Source of the DNA: a virus
Direction: 5' to 3' (one strand)
IMG/VR virus record: IMGVR_UViG_3300040801_006085
Span: 1 to 37,766 of that record
Length of the DNA stretch: 37,766 nucleotides
In this document: piece by piece, positions 7,769-37,766 of the stretch
Layout: each line of letters opens with the position of its first letter
Position numbering within the stretch: the first letter of the stretch is position 1
Translations under genes and position numbers: made by a program
Notes under the pieces: generated by a model
Seen by the model: the letters and a program-made list of their open reading frames with translations, nothing else
The model's database searches: none
What the model was told of the DNA's origin: nothing

Positions 7769-7783
7769 GGCGGAGGGGTGTCG

Positions 7784-14834: not shown

Positions 14835-14881
14835 GAGGGGGCGCCCGCCCCACCACACCTGCCAACGAAAGGAAAGCGGAC

Positions 14882-16141
14882 ATGGCATTGGAAATTCGGC
14901 GCCTCGAGGAGAAGCGCGAGAAACTCATCGCGGATGCTCGGGCCGAGCTCGAGAAGATCACCGATCAGACAACGGCCGAGGAGGCGAAGGAACTCGAGGC
15001 GCGGCACGATGCGGCGCTCGCCGAGTACGACACCCTCGGCGAGCGTGTCGATCGGCTCAGGAAGCTCGAGGAGCGCGAGCGTGCCCGTGAGGAGGCCGAG
15101 GAGCGCAGCCGATCGGAGCGGCGGCCGAGCGGGCAGGGTTCCGCGCCTGCGGGCGATGGCCAGGCGGAAGTCACGGCGCGCGAGGCGTTCCGGTCCATCC
15201 TGCGCGCCGGCGGCGATATCGGCGAGCTGACCGCAGACGAGCGCTCTGCGCTGCAAGAGCTCCGCACGCAGGTTGCCGGCACGGACAACGCCGGCGGCTA
15301 TACCGTGCCGCAGGAGCTTGCCGACCGGATCATCGTCTCGATGGCCGCGCATGGTCCGATGCTCGACCCGAACGTTGTGACCGTGCTCAATACTTCCACC
15401 GGCGCGAAGCTGGTGATGCCGACCGTTGACGATACGGCCAACAGCGCTGCTATCAAGGCGGAGGGCGCTCAGCCGGCGGACGACAACAGCGGCGACGTGA
15501 CCTTCGGCAAATCGGAGCTCGACGCCTATCTCTACTCGACGCCGTTCGTGAAGGTGTCTCGCGAGCTCTTCACCGACAGCGATTTCAGCTTCGAGGATAT
15601 CCTCGCGCAGCTTCTCGGTGAGCGCCTCGCGCGCCAGGCGAATACGCAGCTTTCGGTCGGTACGGGATCCAATCAGCCGCAAGGTATTGCCAGCGCGGCC
15701 GTCGGCAAAATCGCGGCGTCGACCTCCGCGATCACGGCCGACGAGATCATCGACCTGCAGCACTCGGTCGATCCGGCGTATCGCAGGGCGCCGGGGATCG
15801 GCTTCATGCTCAACGACCAGACCCTCGCTTTCGTTCGTAAGCTGAAAGACGGCGACGGCAACTATCTCTGGCAGATGGGCGACTTCCGCAGCGGCGCGCC
15901 CGATCGCCTGCTCGGCGCTCCGGTCCATGTGAACCAGGGCCTCGCCAATCGGGCGGCGAACGCGAAACCGATCATCTTCGGTGACCTCAAGCAGTATTAC
16001 GCGCGGCAAGTCGGCCGCCCGGTGATCGGTGTGCTTCGCGAGCGCACCTGGCCGAACCTTTCGATCGCCGGCTTCATTCGCGCCGATGGCGCGATCGGCG
16101 ATCAAAAGGCGATCCGCTCGCTGCGGATGGCTGGCTCGTAA
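14882..16141 (+). CDS. Major capsid protein, HK97 fold
   Basis: This 419-residue capsid precursor has an N-terminal scaffold-like delta region (about residues 1-110) that is a highly charged coiled coil (RRLEEKREKLIADARAELEK), presumably removed by the upstream protease. The mature part shows typical HK97-family stretches: GGYTVPQELADRIIVSMA, KVSRELFTDSDFSFED, LLGERLARQANTQLSVGTG and GLANRAANAKPIIFGDLKQY. A clear ribosome site (GAAAGGAAAG) precedes ATG 14882. A strong intrinsic terminator follows 25 bases after the stop. Confidence 0.96.
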   Translation: MALEIRRLEEKREKLIADARAELEKITDQTTAEEAKELEARHDAALAEYDTLGERVDRLRKLEERERAREEAEERSRSERRPSGQGSAPAGDGQAEVTAREAFRSILRAGGDIGELTADERSALQELRTQVAGTDNAGGYTVPQELADRIIVSMAAHGPMLDPNVVTVLNTSTGAKLVMPTVDDTANSAAIKAEGAQPADDNSGDVTFGKSELDAYLYSTPFVKVSRELFTDSDFSFEDILAQLLGERLARQANTQLSVGTGSNQPQGIASAAVGKIAASTSAITADEIIDLQHSVDPAYRRAPGIGFMLNDQTLAFVRKLKDGDGNYLWQMGDFRSGAPDRLLGAPVHVNQGLANRAANAKPIIFGDLKQYYARQVGRPVIGVLRERTWPNLSIAGFIRADGAIGDQKAIRSLRMAGS

Positions 16142-19687: not shown

Positions 19688-21225
19688 CCAATATCGGCAC
19701 CATGACGGCGGCCGTGACCGCGGACTCGAGCAACTTCGAGCGCGCAATGAAGCGGGCCTCGGGATCGGCGAAGAGCTTCGGGCGGGAAACCGAGCGATCG
19801 GCCGACCGCGGCGCGGCAGCGCTGCAGCGGATGAACCCGGCGATCCTCGCCGCCGAGAACCGTTTTCTCAGCGCGAGGGCGAGTGCCCGGACCTTCTCAC
19901 GCACGATCGATGGCACGGCCAAGAGCTCGCGCCGCAACACCGCAGCCTTTCAGCAGCTCGGCTTTCAGGTCGGCGACTTCGCCGTGCAGGTGGGATCGGG
20001 GACGAATGCGCTGATCGCGTTCTCGCAGCAGGGCTCGCAGCTCCTCGGTTTTTTCGGTGCCTACGGTGCCGTGGCCGGTGCTGCCCTTGCTATCGCCGCT
20101 CCGCTCGCCCGTGCCTTCTTCGCGCAACGTGATGGCGCGAGCGCGGCAGGGCCGGCGATCGGCGACTACGCGAGCGAGCTCGAGCGGCTTAGCGACTTCC
20201 TGATCCTCACCGCCGGCGGGGAGCGCGCGCTCGCAAAGGCGATGGCGGAGAGGCGCCTCGAGACCTTCCAGGCGATCAAGGCCGAGGCAGAACGGCGCAA
20301 GGCTGCGACCGATCGCCGGCGCGGCATTATCCAAGGTGTCGGCGCGGTCATGAGCGGCCAGACGGGCGCTATCGGGGCCATTGGCCGAGGCACCGCAGGT
20401 GCCCGCGAGGGCATCGCGGAGGGGCTCGAGGCCGAGGCCGAGCGGTACGAGAAAGACATCGCCAAGGCCGAGGAGGCAATCAAGCGCCTGGATGAACGCA
20501 TCGCCCGCGGCCTCTATTCCGATCGGGAGGGCATTCCAGGCAGGCCGGCGGGTGGCGGCCGTGGCGCCGGGGCTGGCGCGGCGAACGACAACGACGGCCT
20601 GACCGAGATCTTCGAGGGGCTTCCCGACAGAGTGCGCGAGACCTTCGGCGAGGTGGGCACCATCATCGAGGAGGCTACGGCGGCGCATCGGCGCCTCGTG
20701 GTCGACCAGTGGGGCGGCGCGCTCGAGGACGGCGCTTCGGCGCTGCGCGTTTTCGCCGGCGAGAACTCGCGGATCTACCGCAGCCTTTTCGCTGCCTCAA
20801 AGGCTTACTCTATCGGCATCGCGACGATGGACGGCGTGCAGGCCGTGCAGAAGGCCGCATCGGCTTTTCCCTTCCCGGCAAACCTTCCGGGCATCGCCGC
20901 TGAGACGGCGCGCGCTGCGGCGAATGTCGCTCGCATCAAGAGCACGGGCTTTCAGCGCGGCGGCTTCACCGGCGCCGGGCTCGATCACCAAGAGGCCGGC
21001 ACCGTGCACCGAAACGAGTTTGTCTTCGACGCTGGTGCAACGGCGCGCATCGGCGTTTCCAGGCTCGAGGAGATCCGCCGGGGCGGTGGCGACGCTGGCG
21101 GGCGACCGGTGGTCGTGAACTTCAATCTTCCTCCGGGGGCTGACGTCGAGAGCTTCCGGCAAAATCGCGGCATGATCGCGGCCGGTGTCGCCAGGGCCGT
21201 TGCCGCGGGCGCGAGGCATCAATGA
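19684..21225 (+). CDS. Tail tape measure protein (short)
   Basis: This 513-residue protein sets tail length. It has a coiled-coil N-terminus (ADSSNFERAMKRASGSAKSF), a hydrophobic stretch around residues 118-145 (LLGFFGAYGAVAGAALAIAA), long helices in the middle and the tape-measure end pattern FQRGGFTGAGLDHQEAGTVH, then RNEFVFDAGAT. At roughly 0.15 nm per residue the tail would be about 75-80 nm, among the shorter siphovirus tails. Confidence 0.9.
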   Translation: MTNIGTMTAAVTADSSNFERAMKRASGSAKSFGRETERSADRGAAALQRMNPAILAAENRFLSARASARTFSRTIDGTAKSSRRNTAAFQQLGFQVGDFAVQVGSGTNALIAFSQQGSQLLGFFGAYGAVAGAALAIAAPLARAFFAQRDGASAAGPAIGDYASELERLSDFLILTAGGERALAKAMAERRLETFQAIKAEAERRKAATDRRRGIIQGVGAVMSGQTGAIGAIGRGTAGAREGIAEGLEAEAERYEKDIAKAEEAIKRLDERIARGLYSDREGIPGRPAGGGRGAGAGAANDNDGLTEIFEGLPDRVRETFGEVGTIIEEATAAHRRLVVDQWGGALEDGASALRVFAGENSRIYRSLFAASKAYSIGIATMDGVQAVQKAASAFPFPANLPGIAAETARAAANVARIKSTGFQRGGFTGAGLDHQEAGTVHRNEFVFDAGATARIGVSRLEEIRRGGGDAGGRPVVVNFNLPPGADVESFRQNRGMIAAGVARAVAAGARHQ

Positions 21226-21845
21226 GCTTTCATGACGTAAGGTTTCCGACCGGCATCTCGCAGGGCTCGAGCGGCGGTCCTGAGCGCCGCACCCTAGTAT
21301 CAGAGGCGGTGAACGGCCGCGAGCACCGCAATCAACAGTGGGCGGATAGTCGGCGAGCCTATAACGCAGGTTACGGCCTCAAGTCGCGAGCGGATCTCTA
21401 TGCGGTGCTCGAGTTCTTCGAGGAGCGCCGCGGCCGGCTCTATGGCTTCCGCTGGCACGATCGCGTCGATCATAGCTCGAGCGGCGGCAGCGGCGATCCT
21501 ACGCCGACCGACCAGGAGCTCGGAGTCGGCGATGGAACCCGCACGGACTTCGCGCTGGTGAAGCGCTACGGCGGAGCCTTCGCCCCTTACGAGCGGCGCA
21601 TCACGCGCCCGGTCGCAGACACGGTGGTCGTAGCGGTCGGCGGTATGCAGACGAATGCCTTCACCCTCACGGATCTCGGCACCGTTCGGCTGGACGTGCC
21701 GCCGGATGCCGGTGCGGCGGTGACGGCAGGGTTCCTTTTCGACGTGCCCGTGCGGTTCGATACCGATCGCCTCGACGTGGTGCTCGAGCATTTCGATGCC
21801 GGCGCGATCGCCGACATTCCGATCGTGGAAGTGCGCGAAGGCTGA
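21222..21845 (+). CDS. Distal tail protein, DUF2460 (GTA gp12-like)
   Basis: This 207-residue protein has the DUF2460 hallmarks: FHDVRFPTGISQGSSGGPER at the start, RRAYNAGYGLKSRADLYAVL, EFFEERRGRLYGFRWHDRVD, GVGDGTRTDFALVKRYG and YERRITRP. The homologue in Rhodobacter-type GTA is the distal tail ring. It opens the four-gene GTA-like tip module. Confidence 0.93.
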   Translation: MSFHDVRFPTGISQGSSGGPERRTLVSEAVNGREHRNQQWADSRRAYNAGYGLKSRADLYAVLEFFEERRGRLYGFRWHDRVDHSSSGGSGDPTPTDQELGVGDGTRTDFALVKRYGGAFAPYERRITRPVADTVVVAVGGMQTNAFTLTDLGTVRLDVPPDAGAAVTAGFLFDVPVRFDTDRLDVVLEHFDAGAIADIPIVEVREG

Positions 21846-21873
21846 AAGCCTCGCCCCCAGGAGGACTGAAGAC

Positions 21874-22758
21874 ATGGCGCGGAAACTTCCCGCTGGCATC
21901 TCGGCGCAGCTTGCGTCGGGCGCCTCGACCCTTGCCCATTGCTGGCGGCTCGAGCGTAAGGACGGGCTTGTGCTCGGCTTCACCGATCACGACCGCGAGC
22001 TCGCGTTCGGGGGCCTGACCTTCGAGCCAAGTTCCGGCTTCTCAGGCAGCGAGGCCGCATCGACCCTCGGCCTTTCGGCCGATACGCAGGAGCTATCCGG
22101 CGCGGTACGCTCCGAGGCGATCACCGAAAAGGATCTCGCCGCGGGCTTCTATGACGACGCGGAGATCACCCTTTTTCTCGTGAACTGGCGGGACACGGAT
22201 GATCGGACAATTCTCCAACGGGGGCACCTCGGGCGCATCACCAGGACCGAGAACGCCTTCCGCGCCGAGTTCCGGTCGCTCGCCCACCGGCTACACCAGC
22301 CGCAGGGCCGGGCGCTCTCGCATACCTGCGATGCCGAGCTCGGCGACCATCGCTGCGGGGCCTCGGTGAGCTCGAGCCTGGGCGCAGTGTCCGCGACCGA
22401 TGGTGCCGCGACCCTCGAGGCGGATGGGCTCGGCGGCGCTCCGCAGGCGTTTGCCGGCGGCCTTCTCACCTTCACCAGCGGCGCGAATGCCGGCCAGAGC
22501 GTCGAGGTGAAAACGCACACCCTCGACGGCTCGCGAGCCTTCATCGCCCTATGGGCGCCGATGCGGGCGGAGATCGGCGAGGGCGACAGCTTCGAGATCA
22601 GGCCGGGCTGCGACAAGACCTTCGAGACGTGCGTGAAGCGGTTCGGAAACGGCGCGAATTTCCGCGGCTTCCCTCATATTCCGGGCGGCGACTTCATCTT
22701 CACCTATGCCCGCACGGGCCAGACCTACGATGGCGGCGGTAATTTCGGTGCGCCGTGA
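21874..22758 (+). CDS. Tail tip protein, DUF2163 (GTA gp13-like)
   Basis: This 294-residue protein starts at ATG 21874 after GGAGG. The family pattern is clear: AHCWRLERKDGLVLGFTDHD at the N-terminus, then an RSLAHRLHQPQGRALSHTCD segment, AELGDHRCG and a Cys-rich C-terminal FETCVKRFGNGANFRGFPHI. Conserved Cys residues in the C-terminal part suggest a metal-bound hub domain. It overlaps the next gene by 29 bases. Confidence 0.93.
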   Translation: MARKLPAGISAQLASGASTLAHCWRLERKDGLVLGFTDHDRELAFGGLTFEPSSGFSGSEAASTLGLSADTQELSGAVRSEAITEKDLAAGFYDDAEITLFLVNWRDTDDRTILQRGHLGRITRTENAFRAEFRSLAHRLHQPQGRALSHTCDAELGDHRCGASVSSSLGAVSATDGAATLEADGLGGAPQAFAGGLLTFTSGANAGQSVEVKTHTLDGSRAFIALWAPMRAEIGEGDSFEIRPGCDKTFETCVKRFGNGANFRGFPHIPGGDFIFTYARTGQTYDGGGNFGAP

Positions 22759-23179
22759 GCTCATCCTCGAGGAGGCGCGCTCGTGGATCGGTACGCCATA
22801 CCATCACCAAGCCTCGGCCAAGGGCATCGGCTGCGACTGCGTCGGCTTGGTGCGCGGTATCTGGCGCGAGCTCACGGGCGCCGATCCTCTGCCGTCTCCG
22901 CCGGCCTACGCGGCCGATTGGGGCGAGGCGGCCGACAATACCCGCATCCTCGAGCTCGGCCGCGAGCTCATGCTTCCGCGGCCGGCGATCGATGCCGAGC
23001 CAGGAGACGTGCTCGCGATGGCGCTGCGATCAAATCGCCGGGCACGTCATGTGCTCATCCTCGGTGAGCACGGCTCGGTCGTTCATGCGCTGAATGGCGC
23101 AGGGGTGGTCGAGGTTCCCTTTGCCGGATCGATCCGCTCGCGGATCGTTGCGGCTTTTTCGTTTCCTTTCGTGGAGTAG
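22730..23179 (+). CDS. NlpC/P60 cell-wall peptidase, GTA gp14-like
   Basis: This 149-residue peptidase starts at ATG 22730, inside the end of the DUF2163 gene. The core shows SWIGTPYHHQASAKGIGCDC (catalytic Cys in DCVGL), a His-containing strand RRARHVLILGEHGS and a second HALNG segment. In tail tips such enzymes open the peptidoglycan during DNA delivery. The gene order DUF2460-DUF2163-peptidase-hub matches that of GTAs. Confidence 0.93.
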   Translation: MAAVISVRRELILEEARSWIGTPYHHQASAKGIGCDCVGLVRGIWRELTGADPLPSPPAYAADWGEAADNTRILELGRELMLPRPAIDAEPGDVLAMALRSNRRARHVLILGEHGSVVHALNGAGVVEVPFAGSIRSRIVAAFSFPFVE

Positions 23180-23185
23180 CGTTCA

Positions 23186-26100
23186 ATGGCACAGGCTGCG
23201 GCAGCGACCATCGCCTTCGTGGGCAACAATGCGAGCACCATCGCGGCCGTTGCCGCTACCGCTGCGGCCGCCGGCAGCTACGCGGCCGCGAGCTCGGTAA
23301 GAGCGCCTGGCGCTGGTGATGGGCCGAGGCTCGAGAACCTCGAGGTTATGACCTCGAAGGAAGGCGCGCCGCTTCCGCGTGCCTACGGCTCGGTGCGGAT
23401 CGGCGGGCAGGTGATCTGGGCGACCCGTCTTGAGGAGGTTGCCGAGGAGGTTGCCGCCGAGGGTGGGGGCGGCGGCAAGGGCGGTGGTGCATCGAGCGGC
23501 TCCTCTTCGACCCGGTACAGCTACTTTGCGAACTTCGCGGTCGCGCTCTGCGAGGGCGAGATCGGATCGATCGGTCGTATCTGGGCCGATACGGTGGAGC
23601 TCGACCAGACCGAAGTCACCATGCGCGTCTATCGCGGTACGGAGGAGCAGGACGTAGACCCGTTGATCGCTGCGAAGTCGGGGGGCCAGGCGCCGGCCTA
23701 TCGCGGCACGGCTTATGTTGTCTTCGAGCGCCTGCCGCTTGCCGAGTTCGGAAACAGGATCCCGCAACTATCCTTCGAGGTTATCAAGCCGGTGATCGGC
23801 GAGACCGAGCGGCTGGTGCGCGGCGTGGACATTATTCCGGGCTCCACCGAGTTCGGTTACGACCCGCAGGTAGTGGAGCAGACGGAGCTTTCATCGGCGG
23901 GCGAGGTGATCCGCCTGCGCACCGAGAACTCGCACAATCTTACGGGCGAGTCGGACTTCGTGAAGGCGATCGACCAGCTCGAGGCGACGTGCCCGAACGT
24001 GCGCACCATCGCGCTCGTGGTGGCCTGGTTCGGCACCGACCTCCGGTGCGGCGAGTGCGAGGTGAAGCCGGGCGTTGAGGTGCGCGGCAAGGCAACCCGC
24101 CCGCATGGCTGGCGGGTGGCGGGGCAGACCCGCGAGACCGCGTACCTCGTCACCGAGGCAGCGCTCGAGGGCCGGCGCTTTCCTGCCTATGGCGGCGCAC
24201 CGAATGACGCCTCGGTCGTGCGCTGCCTCGAGTTCCTCAAGGCGCGCGGCTTCAAGGTGATGCTCTATCCCTTCATCCTCATGGACGTGCCGGCGAACAA
24301 CGTCCTGCCCGACCCTTATGGCGGCGGCTCCCAGGGCGCCTACCCGTGGCGCGGCCGCATCACCCTATCGGTGGCGCCGGGCCTTCCCGGCTCGCCCGAT
24401 AAAACGCCGGCCGCGGCTGCCGAGATCGCGGCCTTCACCGGCGGCGCGGTCTGGTCCGATTTCGGCACCGATGCCGATGGCGTGACCTACGCCGGGCCTG
24501 CGGATGACTGGTCGTTCTCGCGCTTCATCCTGCACCTTGCCAAGCTCGGGCAGCTCGCCGGCGGTGTCGATTACTTCCTGGTGGGATCGGAAATGGTGCA
24601 GATGACCGCTGCGCGCGATGCTCTTGGATCCTATCCGTTCGCGGACGAGCTGGTGCGGCTCATCGGCGAGGCGCGCAACCTTCTGCCCTCCGCCGAGATC
24701 TCCTATGCCGCCGACTGGTCCGAGTACCATTCGCACCGCACCGACGACGGTGTCTGGTTCCACCTCGACGCGGTGTGGGATGCCGCGGACTTCGTGGCGA
24801 TCGACAATTACCTTCCGCTCTCGGACTGGCGCGATGGCTCGGCGCATCTTGATTTCCAGGCGGGTTATTCTTCGATCTACTCGCTCGACTACCTCAAATC
24901 GCAAATCGAGGGCGGAGAGTTCTTCGATTACTTCTATGCGGATCGCGAGGCGCGGTCGGCGCAGAACCGGACGCCGATCATCGACAGCGCGCACGGCGAG
25001 CATTGGGTTTATGGTAACAAGAACCTGCGCGGATGGTGGCAGAACCCGCACCACAACAGGCCGGGCGGTGTGCGAAGCGGCACCTCGACCTCCTGGACGC
25101 CGGAAGGCAAGCGCATTGTCTTCTCCGAGTTCGGCGTTGCGGCGGTGGATAAGGCCACCAACGCGCCGAACCTCTTTCCCGACCCGAAGAGCTCCGAGGC
25201 GGCGCTGCCGCCCTATTCGAGCGGCGGCCGGGACGACATGGTGCAGCGGCGTGCCATCCGAGCCTTTCTCGAGTATTGGAGCGACGAAGCCAACAATCCG
25301 GCATCCTCCGTCTACGGTGGGCGGATGATCGACACCGAGGCGCTGTGCCTCTGGTCGTGGGATGCGCGCCCGTTCCCGACATTCCCGCAGGACGAGCACC
25401 TCTGGGCCGATGCTGGCAACTGGCGGCTGGGGCATTGGATCTCGGCGCGTCTCGGCACGGTATGGGCCGGCGCCGTGGCGGCGGAGCTCTGCGAGGCGGC
25501 CGGCGTTGTGCACTACGACATGAGTGATGCGCTCGGTTCGGTGGATGGCTTTGTCATCGACCGGATCATGTCGGCGCGAAAGGCTCTCGAGCCGCTCGAG
25601 GGCGCGCTCTTTCTCGACTTCTTCGAGAGTGGCGGCGAGATCCGCGCGGCCTCGAAGAGGAGCGTGCCTGCGCCGGTCGGGCTTGACGACGATCGCCTGG
25701 CGCCGGGCGGCGATGGCGGTGCGGTCCAGCTCGAGCGGGCGCAGGAAACAGAGATGCCGGCGCGAGTGCTGTTCCGGTATCAGGGCATCGATACCGCCTA
25801 TCGGGCCTCGGCTACCGGCGCGAGCCGCTTCTCGGTCAGCACAAAGAGTGTTGACGAGCGATCCTATTCGATCGTGCTGGACAGCGGTCGCGCTCAGGTT
25901 GCCGCCGAGGCTCTCCTCTTCGATCAATGGGCGGGCATCGAGGGGCTCTCGGCCGGTACGCTCTGGTCGAGCCTGGATCTCGAGCCGGGCGATGCGGTCC
26001 GCTATCGCGGCCGCGAGTATCGCCTCGAGGAGGTGGTGCGCGCCGATCGCCGCGTCGAGATCAGCGGCCGGAGCTTCGACCGCTCGGTCTTCTCGGCCGG

Positions 26101-27073
26101 GGTGACGGCATCGCGCCAAGCGGAAACCGGCGACCGGGCGGTGAAAGTCGCACCGCTCGCTGTCTTCGCGGATCTCCCTCTTCTGGCCGCCGGGCTCGAT
26201 GACTGGCGAGGCTATGTGGCGGCAACGGCTACGCCGTGGCCGGGCGGGGTGGCGGTCTTCCGCTCGCCGACCGATGGCGGCTATGCGCTGAACGCCGCCC
26301 TGGCTTCGCCGGCCTCGATCGGCGAGCTGACGCGCGACCTCGCGCCCGGCGTGATGAACTACATCGATCGCGGATCCGCGCTCGAGGTGGAGCTCTATTC
26401 GGGCGAGCTCCAATCGGTGAGCCGGGAGGCGTTCCTCGCTGGCAGCCAGGCGCTCGCGGTGCAGCACGCCTCGGGCGAGTGGGAGATTGTGCTTGCCGAG
26501 ATCGCCGAGCTCGTCGCCGAGCGCACCTACAGGCTTACCGGCCTCATGCGTGGCCAGCTCGGGACCGAGCTCTTCCGAGGGGCGAGCACGGGCGCGCGCG
26601 TGATCGTTCTCGGGCCGGCCTTGCGGCAGGTGTCCATGACGCCGGGGGAGATCGGCCGCAGCTTCTACTACCGCACCGGGCCGGCGGGCATCTCGATCGG
26701 CGATGACCGCTATAGCACGCGGCAAGTCACTTTCCGCGGCGTCGGTCGCCGCCCCTATTCGGTCGCACACCTGCGCGCTCGCCGAAGCGGCGGAGATCAC
26801 ATCGTCTCATGGGTGCGCCGTACCCGGATCGAGGGGGATAGCTGGGAAGGCGTCGACGTTCCGCTTGGTGAGGAGCTCGAGCTCTATGTCCTCGAGGTTC
26901 GGGTGGCCGGCGAGCTCAAGCGCACCGCCGAGGCCGCTGCGCCCGACTTTCTCTATTCGGCCGCGATGAAGGCGGCGGATGGATACACCGGCACCGAGGA
27001 TCTCGAGGTGACGGTCTATCAGGTTTCACAAAGCTACGGGCGCGGAGCGCCGAGGAGTATCAATGTCACTTAG
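23186..27073 (+). CDS. Tail hub with GTA TIM-barrel domain (gp15-like)
   Basis: This 1295-residue protein is the largest tail component. An Ala-rich hydrophobic N-terminus (residues 1-40) leads into a baseplate region (KEGAPLPRAYGSVRIGGQVI). A TIM-barrel-like domain spans roughly residues 290-620, with VLRCLEFLKARGFKVMLYP-like strands, PAAAAEIAAFTGGAVW, FLVGSEMVQMT and EISYAADWSEYHSHRTDDG. A phage-tail_3-type C-terminal region follows, ending in LRARRSGGDHIVSWVRRTR and an FN3-like tail. It is the GTA gp15 (megatron) homologue, which may bind or cut cell-surface sugars. The last 11 bases overlap the next gene. Confidence 0.93.
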   Translation: MAQAAAATIAFVGNNASTIAAVAATAAAAGSYAAASSVRAPGAGDGPRLENLEVMTSKEGAPLPRAYGSVRIGGQVIWATRLEEVAEEVAAEGGGGGKGGGASSGSSSTRYSYFANFAVALCEGEIGSIGRIWADTVELDQTEVTMRVYRGTEEQDVDPLIAAKSGGQAPAYRGTAYVVFERLPLAEFGNRIPQLSFEVIKPVIGETERLVRGVDIIPGSTEFGYDPQVVEQTELSSAGEVIRLRTENSHNLTGESDFVKAIDQLEATCPNVRTIALVVAWFGTDLRCGECEVKPGVEVRGKATRPHGWRVAGQTRETAYLVTEAALEGRRFPAYGGAPNDASVVRCLEFLKARGFKVMLYPFILMDVPANNVLPDPYGGGSQGAYPWRGRITLSVAPGLPGSPDKTPAAAAEIAAFTGGAVWSDFGTDADGVTYAGPADDWSFSRFILHLAKLGQLAGGVDYFLVGSEMVQMTAARDALGSYPFADELVRLIGEARNLLPSAEISYAADWSEYHSHRTDDGVWFHLDAVWDAADFVAIDNYLPLSDWRDGSAHLDFQAGYSSIYSLDYLKSQIEGGEFFDYFYADREARSAQNRTPIIDSAHGEHWVYGNKNLRGWWQNPHHNRPGGVRSGTSTSWTPEGKRIVFSEFGVAAVDKATNAPNLFPDPKSSEAALPPYSSGGRDDMVQRRAIRAFLEYWSDEANNPASSVYGGRMIDTEALCLWSWDARPFPTFPQDEHLWADAGNWRLGHWISARLGTVWAGAVAAELCEAAGVVHYDMSDALGSVDGFVIDRIMSARKALEPLEGALFLDFFESGGEIRAASKRSVPAPVGLDDDRLAPGGDGGAVQLERAQETEMPARVLFRYQGIDTAYRASATGASRFSVSTKSVDERSYSIVLDSGRAQVAAEALLFDQWAGIEGLSAGTLWSSLDLEPGDAVRYRGREYRLEEVVRADRRVEISGRSFDRSVFSAGVTASRQAETGDRAVKVAPLAVFADLPLLAAGLDDWRGYVAATATPWPGGVAVFRSPTDGGYALNAALASPASIGELTRDLAPGVMNYIDRGSALEVELYSGELQSVSREAFLAGSQALAVQHASGEWEIVLAEIAELVAERTYRLTGLMRGQLGTELFRGASTGARVIVLGPALRQVSMTPGEIGRSFYYRTGPAGISIGDDRYSTRQVTFRGVGRRPYSVAHLRARRSGGDHIVSWVRRTRIEGDSWEGVDVPLGEELELYVLEVRVAGELKRTAEAAAPDFLYSAAMKAADGYTGTEDLEVTVYQVSQSYGRGAPRSINVT

Positions 27074-27756: not shown

Positions 27757-28404
27757 GTGCCCCTGGAAACTCAGACAATCGGTAAGGCGACCCTCTATCG
27801 GGCCGATTGCCGCGAAGTGCTTCCAATCGTGCAGCACAAAGATCAAGCGATCCTCACCGACCCGCCCTACGGCATCAATATCGCCAAGTTCGGCGGAACT
27901 CGACTGCAGCCTGCGGGCGCTCCTCGGAAGGACTGGGACAGGCCGGTGGCCGATGTTGTGCTCGGCCTTCCCGGCATCGCCCCTGCTATTATTTGGGGTG
28001 GGAACTATTACTCGCTCCCTCCGACCCGCGGCTTCCTGGTCTGGCATAAGCCCTACGCTTTGCCGTCTATGGCCGATTGCGAGCTCGCGTGGACGCCCTG
28101 GGATCGGAACGCGCGCCTTCTGACATTCGACGTTGGTAAGGCGAAGCGTGAGCGAGTTGAGCGCGAGGGCGCGATGGGGCCGGTTCGGCACCCAACACAA
28201 AAGCCAGTACGGGTTTTCGATTGGTCGGCGGACCAATTCGAGCGCCTGCCTGCGATCCTCGACCCTTTTATGGGAACGGGGACCGCTGGCGTTGTCGCGT
28301 CACGGCGCGGCGTGCCCTTCATCGGGTGCGAGATGGACGCGGAGTATTTCGATATGGCCTGCAAGAGGCTCGAAGAGGAGGAGATGAGCGGAACACTCAT
28401 CTAG
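27757..28404 (+). CDS. Beta-class amino-DNA methyltransferase (N6-A or N4-C)
   Basis: This 215-residue enzyme starts at GTG 27757. Motif IV DPPYGINIAKF lies near the N-terminus and motif I DPFMGTGTAGVVA near the C-terminus, the order of the beta class, with HPTQKP before motif I as in CcrM-type enzymes. It is short for a full enzyme, so target specificity may be limited. No restriction partner is seen. It lies between the tail genes and the lysis cassette in the late region, so it would modify DNA late in infection. The class is firm; the recognition sequence is unknown. Confidence 0.92.
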   Translation: MPLETQTIGKATLYRADCREVLPIVQHKDQAILTDPPYGINIAKFGGTRLQPAGAPRKDWDRPVADVVLGLPGIAPAIIWGGNYYSLPPTRGFLVWHKPYALPSMADCELAWTPWDRNARLLTFDVGKAKRERVEREGAMGPVRHPTQKPVRVFDWSADQFERLPAILDPFMGTGTAGVVASRRGVPFIGCEMDAEYFDMACKRLEEEEMSGTLI

Positions 28405-30229: not shown

Positions 30230-30490
30230 ATGTCCGATCTTAACACCTACCCGGTGGAGCCGGATAGTCCGCCCTCGCGCGCTATCGACATCACGCCGAA
30301 CGATAGCGATGACCTGACCTTCGTGATCCGGGGGCTGATGGTGGCGGAGGCCGGGAACGTGGCCGTTGAGACCGTTCTCGGCGATACGGTCACCCTGCCG
30401 GCGCTGCAGCCTGGGGCGCAGTATGCGATCCTCTGCCGGAAGGTTCTGGCGGCCGGCACGACCGCGACCGGGATCGTGGGGCTGGCATGA
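30230..30490 (+). CDS. Spike base protein, RCAP_rcc01079-like (prophage copy)
   Basis: This 86-residue protein has a strong ribosome site (AAAGGAGAACCTGA). The signature DLTFVIRGLMVAEAGNVAVE, GDTVTLPALQPGAQYAILCR and KVLAAGTTATGIVGL matches the small spike base family of Rhodobacter GTA head spikes. It is coupled to the large fibre gene by ATGA, the same order as in the GTA spike pair. A second copy lies outside the prophage at 34828. Confidence 0.85.
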   Translation: MSDLNTYPVEPDSPPSRAIDITPNDSDDLTFVIRGLMVAEAGNVAVETVLGDTVTLPALQPGAQYAILCRKVLAAGTTATGIVGLA

Positions 30491-33400
30491 AGCGATGGGG
30501 CCTCATGTTTTCGCCCTCGGCGCGTGCGCTGTTGTCGAGCGACCCGATCATCCCGGCGCTCCGCGTGCCCGATATCGTTGCAGGTATATCCGTCACGCCG
30601 GGGACCGGATCGGCCGCGATCACCTGGGATGAACCGGAGGCGAACAGCTCGGCCATTACCGGCTACAGGGTGCAGATCGATGACGGCTCGGGCTTCGAGA
30701 CCGTGCGCGATACCGCCGACACAACGCGCAGCTTCGACGCCTCGGATCTTACCGGCGGCGCCCTGACGCGCGTGCGCATCGCGGCGCGTAACAGCGACGG
30801 CCTCGGCGCCTACTCGGTGCCGGTGGAGTTCGTGCCTCTGGTGCCGGCTTCCGTTCCGGGGCAGCCGACCGGGGTCTCGGTATCCATCGGCGACGGCGAG
30901 GCCGAGGCTACCTGGAACCCGCCGGCCGATAACGGCGGCGCTCCGATTACCGATTACGTGCTCGAGCTCTCGGAGGATGGCGGTGCCACGTGGTCGACGG
31001 TGGCCGATGGCGCCGGCTCGGCAACGACCGCGCTTCTCGAGGGCCTCACTAACGGCACTCGCTACCGCCTGCGCGTCTCGGCGGTGAACGAAGCAGGCCA
31101 GGGGCAGGTATCGCAGGCGGCGGACTTCACTCCGCAAGGGGCGATCGCGCAGGCCGGTCTCGCGATGGGCGAGCTTACCGATCGCCGCGTCTATCAGCGC
31201 TCGAGCGAGACGGGCGGCGCCTTCGGCAAGGGATCGGCGGCGATTGCGGTGCCGATCACGCTGACGGCCGAGGCTGCGTCCATCGAGTATCGCCTCATCG
31301 ATCCCGACACCGATCAAACAGTCGTCAACTGGTCGACCGCGGGAACCGATATTGCAGCCTCCACGACCGAGCTCACCCTCGAGGTGCCGGCGGCGCTTGG
31401 CTGGTATGCGCTCGAATTGAGGGCCAACCAGGACAACGCGCAGGTCGTGCGTGGCCAAAACCGCTTCGCGGTCGGGCGGGTGATCGCGGTCGCGGGCCAG
31501 TCGCTCGCAACCCGGATGATCGACAATCAGGGCATGGACGGCACCTTCGCCGACTTCGGCCTCACGGTGCCTGAGAACTGTTCCGTTTACGCAACCTATC
31601 TGGGGCCGAACGACGATGACACGCCGGTCTGGGCGCCGCCGAACGAAGGCGGTTTCGGCTCGGAATACTCCTCGACCTTCCTGCCCGAGTTCTTCCGCCT
31701 TCAGACCGCAGCGGCAGGCGTGACATGCGCTATCGTCGGGCACGCGGTGGGCGGCGCGAGCGCGTGGCAGTTCCGAGACAGCGGCACGGACGGTATCCAG
31801 CTCGCGTCGGTGCTGGAGGATGTTGGAGGCTTCGAGGCGTTCATCTGGTTCCAGGGGCACTCCGACCGGGCCGGCAACGACTACGGCAGCACGCTCGGGC
31901 AGCGCTTCACCGAGTTCGCGGGCTACAATGCCCTTCGCGCAGGCGACTTCGAGAAGTATGTCGCCACCATCCCGAACGTACAGCATGAGGCATATCAGGA
32001 CGACGCGCAGAACATCCTCGAGATCAGGGCGGAGGCGCAGGCGTGGTGCGAGGCGAACGGCGCGGTCTATGTGCAGCCGAACGATCTCGAGATGGACGAC
32101 ACGCTGCACCAGAGCCAGGCCGGCAACATCACGCTCGCGCATCACTTCCATCGGGCAACCCTGCCGGCGCTCGGGCTGCCGGGCGATCACCTCGGGCCGG
32201 CGATCACCGCGGCCAGCCGCACCGGCAGCACCATCACCCTGCAGGTGACGCACCGGCCGGGCGCTACGGCACTGGTCGCCGAAGGTAATGTCGAGGATAT
32301 CTTCTCGGTCTTTGCTGATGGAGATCTTGCGGCCGAGCTGCCGATCGCCTCGGCAAGCGTGGCGGCTGCCGAGATCACTCTCGAGCTGGCCAATGATCCC
32401 GGCTCGGTCGCGCTCGATGTTTACGCCGGCCTCGCGCCCGATAAGGGTACGCCGTGGGCTGACAACATCTACGACAATCATACCGATGGCGACGGCATCA
32501 CGGATGGTCGCCTTCTGCAGGTGACGCTCGCGCCGGTGGATGTTGCGGCCGTGGCCGCGCCCGCTACCAGACCGGCGGCGATCGATGATCTCGCGGTCAC
32601 GGCCGGCGATGGCGATGCCGATGCGAGCTGGTCGGCGCCGGCGAGCGGTGGGGATCCGATCACCGATTACGTGCTCGAGCTCTCGGATGATGGCGGCAGC
32701 ACCTGGTCGGTCTATGCGGACGGGGTGGGCGCCACCAACGCAGCGACCGTTAATTCTCTCGCCAACGGCACCGAGTACCGCCTCCGCGTGGCGGCGGTGA
32801 ACGGCATCGGTACGGCCAACTGGTCGAACGTCGCGACGTTCACACCGGAAAGCGGCGCAGCGGCACCGGCCGCGATCGATGATCTCGCGGTCACGGCCGG
32901 CGATGGCGATGCCAATGCGAGCTGGTCGGCGCCGGCGAGCGGTGGGGATCCGATCACCGATTACGTGCTCGAGCTCTCGGATGATGGCGGCAGCACCTGG
33001 TCGGTCTATGCGGACGGTGTGGGCACCGAAACCTCGGCAACGATCGAAGCTCTCGCCAACGACACTGAGTACCGCCTCCGCGTGGCGGCGGTGAACGGCA
33101 TCGGTACGGCCAACTGGTCGAACGTCGCGACGTTCACGCCCGAGGCCGCGGGCGGCGATACGCCGGTCGGCTTCGATCTCGACGGCTCGGGCGCGAGCTT
33201 CGCTACCGGACGGTTCGGCCAGGCGCTCAGCGCCACCACGATCGAGGTGCAGGACCAGGACATCGCGCCGGAGGGCACCGATACCTTCACCGTCGAGTGC
33301 TGGGTCCGGCGCGCCGATCAGGAGGACAAGATCGCGCTCTCGGGCGAGGACCGCTGGTGGATCGGCTGCGACGGCGCCAACACCTGGTTCCGCATCACGA

Positions 33401-33762
33401 CGGCCGGTGGCAACAAGGTGCACTTGGCCCGCAACGCGGCGCCGGTGCCGGCCGGCGTCTGGCATCACATGGCGCTGGTCTGCCATCCGGGCGGGGCGAG
33501 GGCTTATCTCGACGGCGTCGAGGTCGGCAGCACGACAGACCTGCCGGCGCAGACCGCGGGCCGGAATCCGGCCGCATTGATCGGCGGCATCGGGCCGTTG
33601 CCGCAGTTCAATTGGGATGGTGAGATCGACGAAGTCGCGGTCTTCGATACCGAGCGGTACACCGCGAACTTCACGCCGCCCACCGCGCCGTACACGGGCA
33701 ACGAGCCTGGTCTGGTGCAGCTATGGCACTTCGACGGCGACACGCTCTCGGCGCGCGTCTAG
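30487..33762 (+). CDS. Large spike fibre: FN3 repeats, carbohydrate esterase-like core, LamG-like end
   Basis: This 1091-residue receptor-binding protein has two N-terminal FN3 domains (about 25-115 and 118-217), an insertion, then an SGNH/sialate-O-acetylesterase-like domain (about 325-560). That domain has VAGQSLA (Ser339), WFQGHSD (454-460) and DDTLHQ (D538, H541), the three blocks of that family. Two nearly identical FN3 domains (about 697-887) and a LamG-like C-terminal domain (about 930-1091, ECWVRRADQEDKIALSGEDR to the end) follow. It probably binds and trims acetylated surface polysaccharide. It is a head-spike or tail-spike candidate by analogy with GTA GhsB. Domain calls come from motifs. 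Confidence 0.85.
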   Translation: MKRWGLMFSPSARALLSSDPIIPALRVPDIVAGISVTPGTGSAAITWDEPEANSSAITGYRVQIDDGSGFETVRDTADTTRSFDASDLTGGALTRVRIAARNSDGLGAYSVPVEFVPLVPASVPGQPTGVSVSIGDGEAEATWNPPADNGGAPITDYVLELSEDGGATWSTVADGAGSATTALLEGLTNGTRYRLRVSAVNEAGQGQVSQAADFTPQGAIAQAGLAMGELTDRRVYQRSSETGGAFGKGSAAIAVPITLTAEAASIEYRLIDPDTDQTVVNWSTAGTDIAASTTELTLEVPAALGWYALELRANQDNAQVVRGQNRFAVGRVIAVAGQSLATRMIDNQGMDGTFADFGLTVPENCSVYATYLGPNDDDTPVWAPPNEGGFGSEYSSTFLPEFFRLQTAAAGVTCAIVGHAVGGASAWQFRDSGTDGIQLASVLEDVGGFEAFIWFQGHSDRAGNDYGSTLGQRFTEFAGYNALRAGDFEKYVATIPNVQHEAYQDDAQNILEIRAEAQAWCEANGAVYVQPNDLEMDDTLHQSQAGNITLAHHFHRATLPALGLPGDHLGPAITAASRTGSTITLQVTHRPGATALVAEGNVEDIFSVFADGDLAAELPIASASVAAAEITLELANDPGSVALDVYAGLAPDKGTPWADNIYDNHTDGDGITDGRLLQVTLAPVDVAAVAAPATRPAAIDDLAVTAGDGDADASWSAPASGGDPITDYVLELSDDGGSTWSVYADGVGATNAATVNSLANGTEYRLRVAAVNGIGTANWSNVATFTPESGAAAPAAIDDLAVTAGDGDANASWSAPASGGDPITDYVLELSDDGGSTWSVYADGVGTETSATIEALANDTEYRLRVAAVNGIGTANWSNVATFTPEAAGGDTPVGFDLDGSGASFATGRFGQALSATTIEVQDQDIAPEGTDTFTVECWVRRADQEDKIALSGEDRWWIGCDGANTWFRITTAGGNKVHLARNAAPVPAGVWHHMALVCHPGGARAYLDGVEVGSTTDLPAQTAGRNPAALIGGIGPLPQFNWDGEIDEVAVFDTERYTANFTPPTAPYTGNEPGLVQLWHFDGDTLSARV
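32575..33145 (+). repeat. Tandem near-identical FN3 modules in the spike fibre
   Basis: Two copies of a 294-base unit (starting near 32575 and 32869) encode a 98-residue FN3 domain. The first half is almost base-identical (for example GATCGATGATCTCGCGG in both); differences cluster in a short middle stretch (ATNAATVNSLAN versus TETSATIEALAN). The linkers also differ. This is a recent duplication inside the gene; the copy outside the prophage has a single unit here. Confidence 0.9.
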
Positions 33763-33790
33763 CGGCCTCGGTGGGGCGGCTTCGGCGGCC

Positions 33791-34345
33791 TCACCATTTT
33801 CGATCGCGGCGCTGGCGCTCGAGAACACCGAGGATCTCCACCGCCGATCCCTCGGCGAGGAAGGTCGGGTGCCGCGATGGCGATCTCGGCACAAGAAAGG
33901 GCGGCTCGTAAAGCCGTATGCGAAGGCTTTGCGTGCCGCGCCCTGTCATTGCAATGCGCACGCACAGAATGTCCTCGGCCTTGGGCATCCGATCGCGCTC
34001 GAAGAGCAGCTCGTCGCCGGGCTCGATACCCTCGAGCGAGAGGGCATTGCTGCGCATCTCGAGGGCGAGGCCGGGGGTGGGGAAGCCTGCCGAGCGCCAG
34101 TCGGCCTCGGTGAGGGAGCGCACCTCGGCGTCATCTTCGGCGGCCGCCTGGCCGGGCACTTCCAGGCGTGCCGCTTCGCCGATCTTCTGCAGGGTAAGGG
34201 GCCGGAGCGTGCCGCCCTGTTCGGACAGGAAGCGGGTCAGCGTGCTCGGATTGATCTTCGCCGCTCGGGCGAGGCCAGTCGGGGATAATTCGAGGGTGTC
34301 GAGCGCTCGCCGAACGAAGGCGAGCTGGACGGGGCGCGCAGTCAT
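33791..34345 (-). CDS. Second HTH/S24-like repressor lacking the catalytic dyad
   Basis: This 184-residue protein has an N-terminal helix-turn-helix (SPTGLARAAKINPSTLTRFL, residues 21-40) and an S24-like C-domain (IEPGDELLFERDRMPKAEDI). As in the main repressor, the Ser position reads SNALS (A101) and the Lys position R144 (SLRIRLYEPPF), so self-cleavage is unlikely. It lies convergent to the spike fibre gene and next to the attachment site, away from the main switch. It may silence the integrase or spike region or give superinfection immunity. The start is ATG 34345; CTCGC-TT-GCGAG at 34360-34371 is a possible operator upstream. Confidence 0.8.
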   Translation of the reverse strand: MTARPVQLAFVRRALDTLELSPTGLARAAKINPSTLTRFLSEQGGTLRPLTLQKIGEAARLEVPGQAAAEDDAEVRSLTEADWRSAGFPTPGLALEMRSNALSLEGIEPGDELLFERDRMPKAEDILCVRIAMTGRGTQSLRIRLYEPPFLVPRSPSRHPTFLAEGSAVEILGVLERQRRDRKW

Positions 34346-34562
34346 GCCTTCGCATGGCCGCTCGCTTGCGAGTCGTCACGATGCTTTGCGGGCGGTGGTT
34401 AACGGCCGCGCGCAATGCCAGCGCACACGTCGCGCAACCCTCGAGGCTTCCGAGGTTCGATTTTGCCGCTATTTCGGAGCGCAGAATGGAGCGCGAACCG
34501 GAGCGCAACGGCCGCCAGAGGATCGCTTAAACCCTTGTTTTTACTGGTTATGGGGGGTCTGG
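34346..34562. other. Non-coding right-end region of the prophage
   Basis: No convincing gene is seen here. The gap contains the promoter side of the second repressor, the small inverted repeat at 34360-34371, three 12-base repeats at 34476-34511 and a T-rich stretch just before the tRNA 3' end. Its position next to the presumed attR suggests the phage arm of the attachment site. Confidence 0.5.
34476..34511. repeat. Three 12-base direct repeats near attR
   Basis: GGAGCGC occurs at 34476, 34488 and 34500, giving the units GGAGCGCAGAAT, GGAGCGCGAACC and GGAGCGCAACGG at an exact 12-base period. They end 51 bases before the tRNA 3' end. They could be integrase or excisionase arm sites, or repressor sites. 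The repeats are directly visible; the binding role is inferred. Confidence 0.6.
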
Positions 34563-34600
34563 TGGCGGAGACGAAGGGATTCGAACCCTCGAGACGGCTA
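34563..34600. other. Presumed attR: 3' part of tRNA-Ser
   Basis: The prophage genes stop on the 3' side of the tRNA, and tyrosine integrases commonly use the T-arm and 3' end as the crossover site. A matching fragment is expected just left of the integrase, outside this window, so the exact core cannot be defined here. Confidence 0.5.
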
Positions 34601-34655
34601 CAAACCGCCTACTCCCTTAGCAGGGGAGCGCCTTCGACCACTCGGCCACGTCTCC
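34563..34655 (-). tRNA. tRNA-Ser (anticodon GCT)
   Basis: On the minus strand the acceptor arms GGAGACG and CGTCTCC pair perfectly. The D-arm reads TGGCCGAGTGGTCGAAGGC, the anticodon stem CTCCC/GGGAG flanks the loop with GCT, and a long variable arm (GGCGGTTTGTAGCCGTC) typical of Ser tRNAs follows. The T-arm is GAGGGTTCGAATCCCTT and CCA is encoded (34563-34565). The prophage lies on the 3' side, the usual integration side. Confidence 0.95.
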
Positions 34656-34662
34656 ACCGACG

Positions 34663-34691
34663 TGTAGACCTTATGACGGCGCGCGGTGCAA
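34663..34691 (-). promoter_or_regulatory. Probable promoter of tRNA-Ser
   Basis: On the minus strand TTGCAC (34686-34691) and TCTACA (34663-34668) are separated by 17 bases, and the -10 element ends seven bases before the tRNA 5' end. Spacing and position fit a tRNA promoter; the -10 hexamer is imperfect. Confidence 0.5.
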
Positions 34692-34827
34692 GACCTTTCC
34701 CGCTTCGCGCGGCCTCGATCGGGCTCCGATCGGCGCAAACTTATCCCCGGTCCCGGACCGGCCCCTAGTCTTGGCGCTCAGACCTGTTGCCGGCCGGTGA
34801 TGACCGCCGGCGGATATGGAGAGCGCC

Positions 34828-35091
34828 ATGACGACCGATCTCGAAACCCTGCAGCCCGGCCTCGAAAGCCCGCCTTCGCGCGGCACCGTGGTCACCCCCG
34901 ATGACAATGCGGATCTCAGCTTCCCTGTCAGGGGCCTCATGGTGGCGGGCGCTGGCGATGTCTCGGTGGAGACACTCGGCGGGGATACCGTGACCCTCCC
35001 TGCGCTGCAGCCCGGCGTGCAGTACGCGGTGCTCGCCCGGAGGGTCCTCGCGGCAGGCACCACGGCCACCGGCATCATCGGGCTCGCCTGA
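34828..35091 (+). CDS. Spike base protein, RCAP_rcc01079-like (copy outside the prophage)
   Basis: This 87-residue protein is closely similar to the prophage copy at 30230, sharing RGLMVA, GDTVTLPALQPG and LAAGTTATGI. The start is ATG 34828 after GGAGAG; ATG 34816 overlaps that ribosome site. The 170 bases upstream hold the tRNA promoter and GC-rich inverted repeats (for example CCGGTCC-C-GGACCGG at 34747). It overlaps the large fibre gene by a single base (stop TGA and ATG share an A). Being beyond the tRNA it is probably host DNA, perhaps the GTA head-spike locus; a neighbouring phage remnant is the alternative. Confidence 0.85.
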   Translation: MTTDLETLQPGLESPPSRGTVVTPDDNADLSFPVRGLMVAGAGDVSVETLGGDTVTLPALQPGVQYAVLARRVLAAGTTATGIIGLA

Positions 35092-37766
35092 TGAGACTGG
35101 GCTTGGGACTGAGTTCTTCGCGTCCGCAGCGCACCGGCGGCGGGGCCCTCCCGCCGAGCCTCAACGTGCCCGGGCAGGTGAACGGACTGACGCTCCGGCC
35201 GGGCGACGGCGAGTTGACCGCAAGCTGGGAGGAGCCACTGAATGACGGCCCGCCAGTCCGGGACTATCTCATCCAGCTCGATGCCGGAAACGGGTTCGCC
35301 ACGATCACGGATGGGGTCGGGACAGACCGGAGTTTCGTCGTCGAGGGGCTGAAGAATGGCGACAGCTACCGCCTCCGCGTTGCAGCCATCAACGATGACG
35401 GAACCGGTGCGTTTTCCAGCGCAGTGCGTGCGGTCCCGGCGGCTTCGGTGGGCTTTTCCGTGACCGAGCCGGCGGCCTACCGCGTCTTCCAGCGTGCGAA
35501 CGAAACCGGTGGAGCGTTCGGTCTGGGCGAAGCGGCGGCGGGTTTCCGCATCGACGCCTCCGAAGCGATCCCACAACTCGAGATGCGCCTGCGGGATGCG
35601 GCGGACGGTTCGGTTCTTGCGGACTGGCACCTCGAAGCCGAGAACCTCCCGCAGGGCGGGACTGATATCGAGGTCACGCTGCCCGCGCGGAAGGGGTGGT
35701 TCGTCGCCGATTTCAGGGCGGGCAACGACACGGTCCTGGGGCAGAACCCGATCGCGGCAGGCCGGGTCATTGCCGTTGCGGGGCAGAGCCTTGCGACCCG
35801 TCTGCTCAACGACCAGGGGGAGACGGGAAGCTTCGCAGCCCTCGGCCTGGGGGTGCCCGAGCACGGTGCGGTCTACGCGACCTTCTCCGGGCCCGAGACC
35901 GACGAAACCGCGGTCTGGGCACCGCCCAACGAGGGTGGTTTCGGGTCGGAATATTCGAGCGCCTTCCTGCCGGCATTCCTGAGCCTTCAGGCCGAAGCGT
36001 CCGGCGTGACCTGCGCGGTCGTCGGTCATGCCCAGGGCGGTGCGAGTGCATGGACGTTCCGGCCTTCGGGCAGCAACGGGATCGCACTCGCCTCGGTGCT
36101 GGGCGAGGTCGGAGGCTTCGAAGCCTTCATCTGGTTCCAGGGCCATTCCGACCGCGGAACTTCGGACTATGGCGGGATACTCGAAAACCGCTTTGCAGAA
36201 TTCGCAGGCTACAACGCCCTTCGCGGGCAGGACTTCGACAGGATCGTCGCTACGATTCCGAACGTTCAGCACCCAGCCTATGCGGAGGACCAGGAGGCCA
36301 TCCTCAGCCTTCGCGCCAGCGCGAAAGCCTGGTGCGAGGCGAACGGTGCGGCCTATGTCCAGCCGCACGACATCGAGATGGACGACACGCTGCACCAGAA
36401 CCAGGCAGGCAACATCACCCTCGCGGGGCATTTCCACAGGGCGAGCCTGCCGGGGCTCGGGCTTGGCGAGGGCCACCTCGGGCCGCAGGTGACTGGGGGC
36501 AGCCGAAGCGGTACCATCGTGACCCTCGATGTGACGCACCGGCCAGGCGGCACGACGCTCATCGGTGAAGGCAGTTTTGCAAATCTCTTCAGTCTCGTGG
36601 CGGTAGGCGAGGTCGGACCGCCGCTCTCTATTGCCCAGGCGTCGGTCGGTGACGACACAGTGACGCTTGAGCTGGCAGAAGATCCGGGGGCATCCGAGCT
36701 GGACCTCCATGTGAACCTCTCGCCAGACCGGGGAACGCCTTGGGCAGACAATATCTATGATGACCGCCTCGGAGGCGATGGACTCGGCTTCGGACGGCCT
36801 CTCGAAACCACGCTCGCGCCGGTCAGGATCACGGCCATGGCCGCCCCTGCGACAGTCCCCGCCGCCATCGACGACCTCTCGGTCGCGGCGGGCGACGGTG
36901 AAGCCCTTGCAAGCTGGACCGCCCCCGGGGACGGAAGTGACCCGATCACGGACTACCACCTTGAAATCTCCGAAGACGGAGGAGCAACCTTCACGCAGGT
37001 GAATGATGGTGTGTCGGACGTGCCGGGAGCAACCCTGGGAAACCTCGTGAACGGGACTGAGTATCACCTTAGGGTTCGGGCCGAGAACGGTGTCGGGCCT
37101 GGCGAGTTCTCGGAGGCCAAGGCGTTCATCCCGGCTGCGGCGGCCACGGGAGGTGACACGCCCGTGGGGCGGGACATCGATACCAGCAGTGCCGGGTTCG
37201 CGCCGGCCGGCGCCGGGTTCGGGCAGGCCCTCGCGAACAGCCGGGTCGAACTCGGTTCCGGCCTGGCGCCCGGTGGCTCGAACACCTTCACCGTGGAATG
37301 TCGCCTGAGGCCAGCCAATGACGACAAGGACCAGATCGCACTGTCCGATAACGGGAGGTGGTGGATCGGCAAGGACGGAAACGAGACCTGGTTCCGCATT
37401 CTCGAGCCTGGCGGTGCCAAGATCCACCTTGCCAGGCGGGCGGCGCCCATGCTCGCGGGGCAGTGGTATCACGCTGCCCTCGTCTGCGGGCCGTCCGGTT
37501 GCCGGGTCTTCCTGGACGGAACGGAAATCGGCTCGACGACCTCGACGGTGACGACATCCACCGGGGGAAGTCCCGGGGGCTGCATCGGCGGGCTCGCCGA
37601 ATCGGGGACATTCGACTGGGAGGGCGAAATCGACGAGATCGCGGTTTTCGACCATGAGCGCTACGCCGCGGGATTCACGCCGCCCCAGGCACCCTATACC
37701 GGATCGGAGCCGGGGCTCGTCGAGCTTTGGCACCTCGATGGTGACGGCCTTTCGGCACGGGTCTGA
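35091..37766 (+). CDS. Large spike fibre: FN3, esterase-like core, LamG-like end (copy outside the prophage)
   Basis: This 891-residue paralogue of the prophage fibre keeps the same domain order with one FN3 at the N-terminus instead of two and one FN3 before the LamG-like end instead of two. The esterase-like core retains VAGQSLA (S233, codon AGC rather than TCG), WFQGHSD (348-354) and DDTLHQ (D432, H435). Codon choice differs from the prophage: Leu-Glu pairs are mostly CTCGAA or CTTGAA rather than CTCGAG. The stop codon is the last three bases of the window. It is a candidate GTA-type head spike (GhsB-like) of the host; the assignment is by analogy. Confidence 0.85.
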   Translation: MRLGLGLSSSRPQRTGGGALPPSLNVPGQVNGLTLRPGDGELTASWEEPLNDGPPVRDYLIQLDAGNGFATITDGVGTDRSFVVEGLKNGDSYRLRVAAINDDGTGAFSSAVRAVPAASVGFSVTEPAAYRVFQRANETGGAFGLGEAAAGFRIDASEAIPQLEMRLRDAADGSVLADWHLEAENLPQGGTDIEVTLPARKGWFVADFRAGNDTVLGQNPIAAGRVIAVAGQSLATRLLNDQGETGSFAALGLGVPEHGAVYATFSGPETDETAVWAPPNEGGFGSEYSSAFLPAFLSLQAEASGVTCAVVGHAQGGASAWTFRPSGSNGIALASVLGEVGGFEAFIWFQGHSDRGTSDYGGILENRFAEFAGYNALRGQDFDRIVATIPNVQHPAYAEDQEAILSLRASAKAWCEANGAAYVQPHDIEMDDTLHQNQAGNITLAGHFHRASLPGLGLGEGHLGPQVTGGSRSGTIVTLDVTHRPGGTTLIGEGSFANLFSLVAVGEVGPPLSIAQASVGDDTVTLELAEDPGASELDLHVNLSPDRGTPWADNIYDDRLGGDGLGFGRPLETTLAPVRITAMAAPATVPAAIDDLSVAAGDGEALASWTAPGDGSDPITDYHLEISEDGGATFTQVNDGVSDVPGATLGNLVNGTEYHLRVRAENGVGPGEFSEAKAFIPAAAATGGDTPVGRDIDTSSAGFAPAGAGFGQALANSRVELGSGLAPGGSNTFTVECRLRPANDDKDQIALSDNGRWWIGKDGNETWFRILEPGGAKIHLARRAAPMLAGQWYHAALVCGPSGCRVFLDGTEIGSTTSTVTTSTGGSPGGCIGGLAESGTFDWEGEIDEIAVFDHERYAAGFTPPQAPYTGSEPGLVELWHLDGDGLSARV

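Follow-up and report, generated by a model that had tools for sequence, protein, structure and literature searches.

Two anciently diverged head-spike cassettes lie on either side of a tRNA-Ser gene at the probable attachment site of a prophage

Results

We analysed a virus record from IMG/VR (IMGVR_UViG_3300040801_006085; 37,766 bases), here called the window, which runs from the start codon of an integrase gene to the stop codon of a spike fibre gene. Near its right end we found two colinear cassettes in the same orientation, each with a spike base gene followed by a spike fibre gene; the inner cassette lies at 30230–33762 and the outer cassette at 34816 (34828)–37766. The inner spike base (30230–30490, plus strand; 86 aa) belongs to phrog_12296 and has an Rcc01079-like jellyroll, and the inner fibre (30487–33762, plus strand; 1091 aa) has four FN3 copies, a SASA-type acetylesterase, and LamG. 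The outer base (34816–35091, plus strand; 91 aa) has a likelier start at 34828, after GGAGAG, and the outer fibre (35091–37766, plus strand; 891 aa) begins with an MRLGLGL anchor that is followed by FN3, an acetylesterase (S233, D432, H435), FN3, and LamG. Between the cassettes, a repressor gene and a tRNA-Ser(GCT) gene are found on the minus strand; the repressor (33791–34345) is a second Xre/LexA-like protein and a distant homologue of the repressor at 3286–3951. A scan of 33700–34900 for sigma-70 promoters gave no match. Open reading frames, the tRNA, and homology all confirm the arrangement of two colinear cassettes around tRNA-Ser that a preliminary description of this DNA had put forward.

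The inner cassette is part of a prophage. A tyrosine integrase (DUF6538 and Phage_integrase; 1–1344, plus strand) stands at the left end of the record, which does not include attL. Further along the plus strand there are a head module with large terminase, portal, prohead protease, and major capsid protein (11253–16141), assigned by order and similarity; GTA-like distal tail genes (g12, g13, g14 peptidase, and a g15 that is tip or 'megatron' like; 21222–27073) that resemble GTA and Rhodobacter phage genes; and a phage lysozyme (28413–28877) at the start of the lysis module ahead of the inner spike pair. Given this gene order, from the integrase through terminase, portal, capsid, and tail to lysis, the element is a temperate siphovirus-like prophage, and its host is probably a Rhodobacterales bacterium; compared with an even draw of the class, the major capsid protein reached only 42%. 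The late genes of the prophage end with the inner pair, found after the lysis genes and before the regulator and the probable attachment site, and this position matches the order in phage RcapNL (lysis, base, fibre, regulator, integrase). Base and fibre likewise end the late genes in phages RcWaterboi and Pben1. The bases of these three phages are about 31–41% identical to the inner base; in contrast, their fibres are unrelated to the inner fibre. On reading the sequence, we also noticed that the prophage appears to encode a DnaN-like DNA polymerase sliding clamp (6641–7768), and motifs point to two probable DNA methyltransferases (1548–2768 and 27757–28404), one of the cytosine type and one of the N4/N6 type with DPPYGI.

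The two bases are 67% identical (E = 3e-39), and both belong to phrog_12296 (E = 1e-17). A profile of the two matched the RcGTA head-spike base Rcc01079 (6tb9; E = 7.5e-8) and the spike base of the Carin1 phage capsid (8cjz; E = 2e-4). The AlphaFold model of the outer base has a mean pLDDT of 90, and when we searched with it in Foldseek, only 6tb9 (rmsd 1.4 Å) and 8cjz, which has the same base fold at 28% identity, fell below E = 0.001. In sequence and in the fold of the 84-aa jellyroll, these proteins are head-spike bases of the Rcc01079 and phrog_12296 kind; both window pairs are of the head-spike base and fibre type, and the cassettes add new members to the head-spike family of phages and GTAs. 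In RcGTA, the base protein forms pentamers on the capsid vertices, each holding one fibre through its N-terminal Leu-Gly repeat (PMC7296036).

The fibres are 56% identical over 661 aa and 59% over 305 aa, and have the domain order FN3, SASA-type esterase, FN3, and LamG in common. A domain search found four FN3 copies in the inner fibre and two in the outer, so that earlier claims of a shared domain order, shared esterase motifs, and differing FN3 number were borne out. In the inner fibre, tandem FN3 units at 32571 and 32865 (32571–33143) are 92% identical in DNA, which points to a recent tandem duplication of this unit. The fibre model has low confidence overall; its core matches the carbohydrate acetylesterases XAC1771, SIAE, and CE20, which have the esterase core and the GQS and D-x-x-H motifs in common with the window fibre. 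Residues S233, D432, and H435 of the outer fibre are invariant in 7 sequences, and they are the Ser/Asp/His set of an SGNH/SASA carbohydrate acetylesterase. Unlike those enzymes, the window esterase sits within a spike fibre, and its activity is a prediction. Judging from motifs and model, the fibre would likely bind and de-acetylate surface polysaccharide, its presumed substrate. Known relatives of the esterase fibre are phage proteins, and a search of 84,980 species genomes with two short patterns found no fibre relatives. The outer fibre gene directly follows its base, and its start, MRLGLGL, has the alternating glycine/hydrophobic anchor of head-spike fibres and resembles the RcGTA star peptide IALGLGLGL (PMC7296036); in the inner fibre (MKRWGLMF) the anchor is degenerate.

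When the cassettes were compared base by base, the DNA was 65–70% identical over matching parts and the longest identical run was 27 nt. Fourfold sites were identical at 42% of positions, with 35% expected by chance for this composition. Because silent sites are near saturation and no identical run exceeds 27 nt, the cassettes must have parted long ago and any exchange is ancient. The long identical stretches described earlier are present in the protein and absent from the DNA, and the different codon use is real but mild (GC3 of 0.829 and 0.777 for the inner and outer fibres, 0.828 and 0.837 for the bases). Recombination between the copies, which had been predicted to delete the tRNA gene, is unlikely given how short the longest shared run is and how high the divergence. 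A stretch of 60 consecutive fourfold sites within the esterase core, 38 of them identical, is less diverged (permutation p = 0.008), a weak trace that was possibly left by partial exchange between the cassettes.

We placed the bases in a tree of 100 rows and 82 columns, in which many forks are unresolved. Rather than falling into unrelated clades, the outcome that the preliminary description had set against a shared cassette, the inner base is sister to the outer base (98/90); as neither has a closer relative in the tree, a spike cassette is common to phage and flank. The other rows of their 13-row clade (97/81) are nine host loci and two from prophages of a single genome, and this clade holds stand-alone Rhodobacterales pairs, many of them beside exopolysaccharide genes. 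Rcc01079 of RcGTA falls in a group with phage RcapNL and the copies of a genome described below, G519 (100/93). A tree with the outer base as sister of Rcc01079 (RcGTA GhsA) was rejected (p-AU = 0.002). Forcing the outer base into the RcGTA/RcapNL/G519 group was weakly rejected (p = 0.032), and forcing both window bases there was not rejected (p = 0.14); the outer pair is thus placed outside the GhsA clade, weakly so with respect to the wider clade. The outer pair had been likened to a GTA head spike, and this stands for its type (profile match and fold) and not for a specific tie to the GTA. Similarly, of the proposed module exchange between phage and GTA, an old exchange between phage and host is partly supported by the sister bases; a recent one is contradicted by the fourfold sites, and the outer locus is at most a putative GTA locus.

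RcGTA GhsA/GhsB (Rcc01079/Rcc01080) of Rhodobacter capsulatus resembles the window pairs in having a small jellyroll base and then a long fibre, and the outer pair in particular in having an LGLGL-type N-terminal anchor and, as we infer for the outer pair, a stand-alone chromosomal locus. In contrast, RcGTA lies on a different branch of the base tree, its fibre has 325 aa as compared to 891–1091 aa with FN3, esterase, and LamG in the window, and the window, which ends at 37766, shows no GTA cluster or capsule genes.

The tRNA-Ser(GCT) gene (34563–34655, minus strand) has its 3' end facing the prophage and is the probable attachment site. Just inside it, on the plus strand, are repeats in the order CGGAGCGCA / GGAGCGCGA / CGGAGCGCA (34475–34508; the two CGGAGCGCA copies at 34475 and 34499), possible integrase arm-type sites. 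No second copy of the att core at tRNA-Ser was found within the window, and attL lies outside the record; since the record opens with the start codon of the integrase, the site was deduced from the tRNA. Among 33 Rhodobacterales tRNA-Ser(GCT) loci, an integrase is found on the 3' side in 7 and on the 5' side in none. The outer pair sits on the 5' side and is therefore probably chromosomal. The window tRNA-Ser(GCT) is 97–99% identical to chromosomal Rhodobacterales copies, and a 55-nt tRNA pattern had no match among viral contigs. In genomes G600 and G584, a stand-alone spike pair adjoins the 5' side of tRNA-Ser(GCT), in the opposite orientation to the window, and G584 also has an integrase on the 3' side of this tRNA. 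The genus with the nearest tRNA-Ser has integrases on the same 3' side of the tRNA, and none of its 33 genomes has a spike base; it is probably not the host genus, because its flanks look more AT-rich, so that the suggested comparison with prophage-free relatives could be made only in part.

Spike bases are present in 8 of 385 genomes drawn class-wide, in 8 of 40 of one family, and in 110 of 293 Rhodobacterales, and the Rhodobacterales loci whose context was read are mostly stand-alone. Glycosyltransferases, WecG, Wzy, and Wzz are frequent among the neighbours of 32 host spike loci; the RcGTA spike pair of R. capsulatus adjoins capsule genes (PMC10218006). In seven genomes of one family, a stand-alone pair occupies the same chromosomal position next to tRNA-Thr and murA, usually preceded by a small gene for a possible holin, which has no match in Pfam. 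Stand-alone pairs at tRNAs were found at tRNA-Ser (G600 and G584), at tRNA-Thr (G465 and these seven genomes, of the G248 family), and at tRNA-Asn (G248); by a rough estimate, tRNA adjacency is only slightly above chance. In G465 (6052–8251 of locus L195, a host context), tRNA-Thr is followed 110 bp on by a spike base and then by a fibre with a SASA-type esterase. Tandem spike bases were seen in other phages, at four loci. In two prophage-like contexts of one further genome, G460 (contigs C38 and C11), the fibres are 80% identical over their first 278 residues and the bases 38%, a hint from sequence that fibres may be swapped between bases.

An independent case came from ten genomes with at least two spike bases, for which adjacency was not a search criterion. 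In G519 (contig C29, 252381–294459), a prophage with terminase, portal, capsid, and tail genes is bounded by a perfect 48-bp repeat of a tRNA-Trp 3' end (252381–252428 and 294121–294168), and a base and fibre pair is found inside it at 288169. Past attR, at a distance of 291 bp, another base begins at 294459 in the same orientation, and its fibre is decayed. The outer and inner bases are 69% identical, share 18 of 40 fourfold sites, and are sisters in the tree (100/98). As in the window, a phage pair lies inside the att sites and a sister base just outside, in the same orientation and with near-saturated silent sites, and the window-type arrangement is not unique. Unlike the window, the tRNA is tRNA-Trp, attR is at a partial tRNA copy, the outer fibre is decayed, and the base belongs to the RcGTA/RcapNL clade. 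The outer base of G519 is consistent with a remnant that an earlier prophage left at this site.

Discussion

Capsid spikes that bind polysaccharide on the cell surface are common to the gene transfer agents and the phages of alphaproteobacteria, and we know of no described route by which the genes for these spikes are passed from virus to host or back. For the window, we favour a reading, with a probability of about 0.62, in which the inner pair is the cassette of the prophage, the outer pair is a resident chromosomal pair, and the two go back to an old phage–host exchange that preceded integration. It builds on the homology and sisterhood of the pairs, the base fold, the intact catalytic residues, and the saturated divergence. 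Both pairs would encode head spikes, with a base pentamer on the capsid vertices that holds one long fibre through a glycine/hydrophobic N-terminus, and the fibre would bind surface polysaccharide and probably de-acetylate it. The siphovirus-like prophage would have integrated at the 3' end of tRNA-Ser(GCT), bringing the inner pair as its terminal late cassette. The outer pair, on the chromosomal (5') side, would be a resident stand-alone cassette such as many Rhodobacterales have, in most cases by exopolysaccharide genes; in R. capsulatus, a cassette of this kind arms the gene transfer agent. One ancestor would have given rise to both pairs by exchange between phage and host long before the present integration. 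Against this reading, the outer pair has no close relative in any genome searched, the genus with the nearest tRNA has no spikes, relatives of the esterase fibre are phage proteins, the pairs in G600 and G584 are oriented differently, and the tree has 82 columns. Because the record ends at 37766, the outer pair could also belong to another mobile element.

The outer pair might instead be a relic of an earlier related prophage, left by serial occupancy of one attachment site, as the decayed fibre and the sister base 291 bp past attR in G519 would suggest and as the otherwise phage-like esterase fibre would allow. We consider this unlikely for the window, where the outer pair is intact and lies 5' of the tRNA, a place where a prophage using the tRNA 3' end would not have been, and where no other phage gene is found between tRNA-Ser and the outer pair. 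A resident locus fits better than a relic, because the outer pair is intact and across the tRNA. Less probable still is one larger prophage with two spike sets and a tRNA-Ser gene whose true right end is beyond 37766; the IMG/VR record does extend to the end of the outer fibre and other phages do have tandem spike bases, but the tRNA-Ser(GCT) is nearly identical to chromosomal copies and a recurrent integration site, and the repressor and possible arm-type repeats are just inside it. A recent duplication within this genome, to which the side-by-side placement in the same order and orientation might point, is refuted by silent-site saturation (and a protein identity of 57%), unless substitution rates are extreme.

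Beyond the resident-cassette reading of this one locus, we put forward, tentatively and as a whole that is rather doubtful, that prophage attachment sites may be exchange points for head-spike cassettes. As the last late cassette, next to attR, the spike pair would be most easily left behind; leftovers might turn into the stand-alone loci, resident in Rhodobacterales, whose spikes these hosts use for GTAs, new phages might settle beside them, and the window and G519 might be two snapshots of an old resident beside a new phage.

Sharing of spikes between phages and GTA is already known from RcapNL and RcapMu with RcGTA (PMC8601537). New here are the tandem placement across a probable attachment site and the ancient sisterhood of the two cassettes, which extend this sharing. 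In each of two independent genomes, the cassette of a phage is accompanied by a sister cassette from which it parted long ago, positioned across the attachment site or next to it, which makes attachment sites worth examining, and spike bases are present in more than one third of the sampled Rhodobacterales, mostly stand-alone where the context was read. Taken together, these data suggest that viruses and their hosts exchange the components that hold on to sugar coats at the cell surface, and they prompt a question open to experiment: can the capsid of an incoming phage be fitted with a resident spike?
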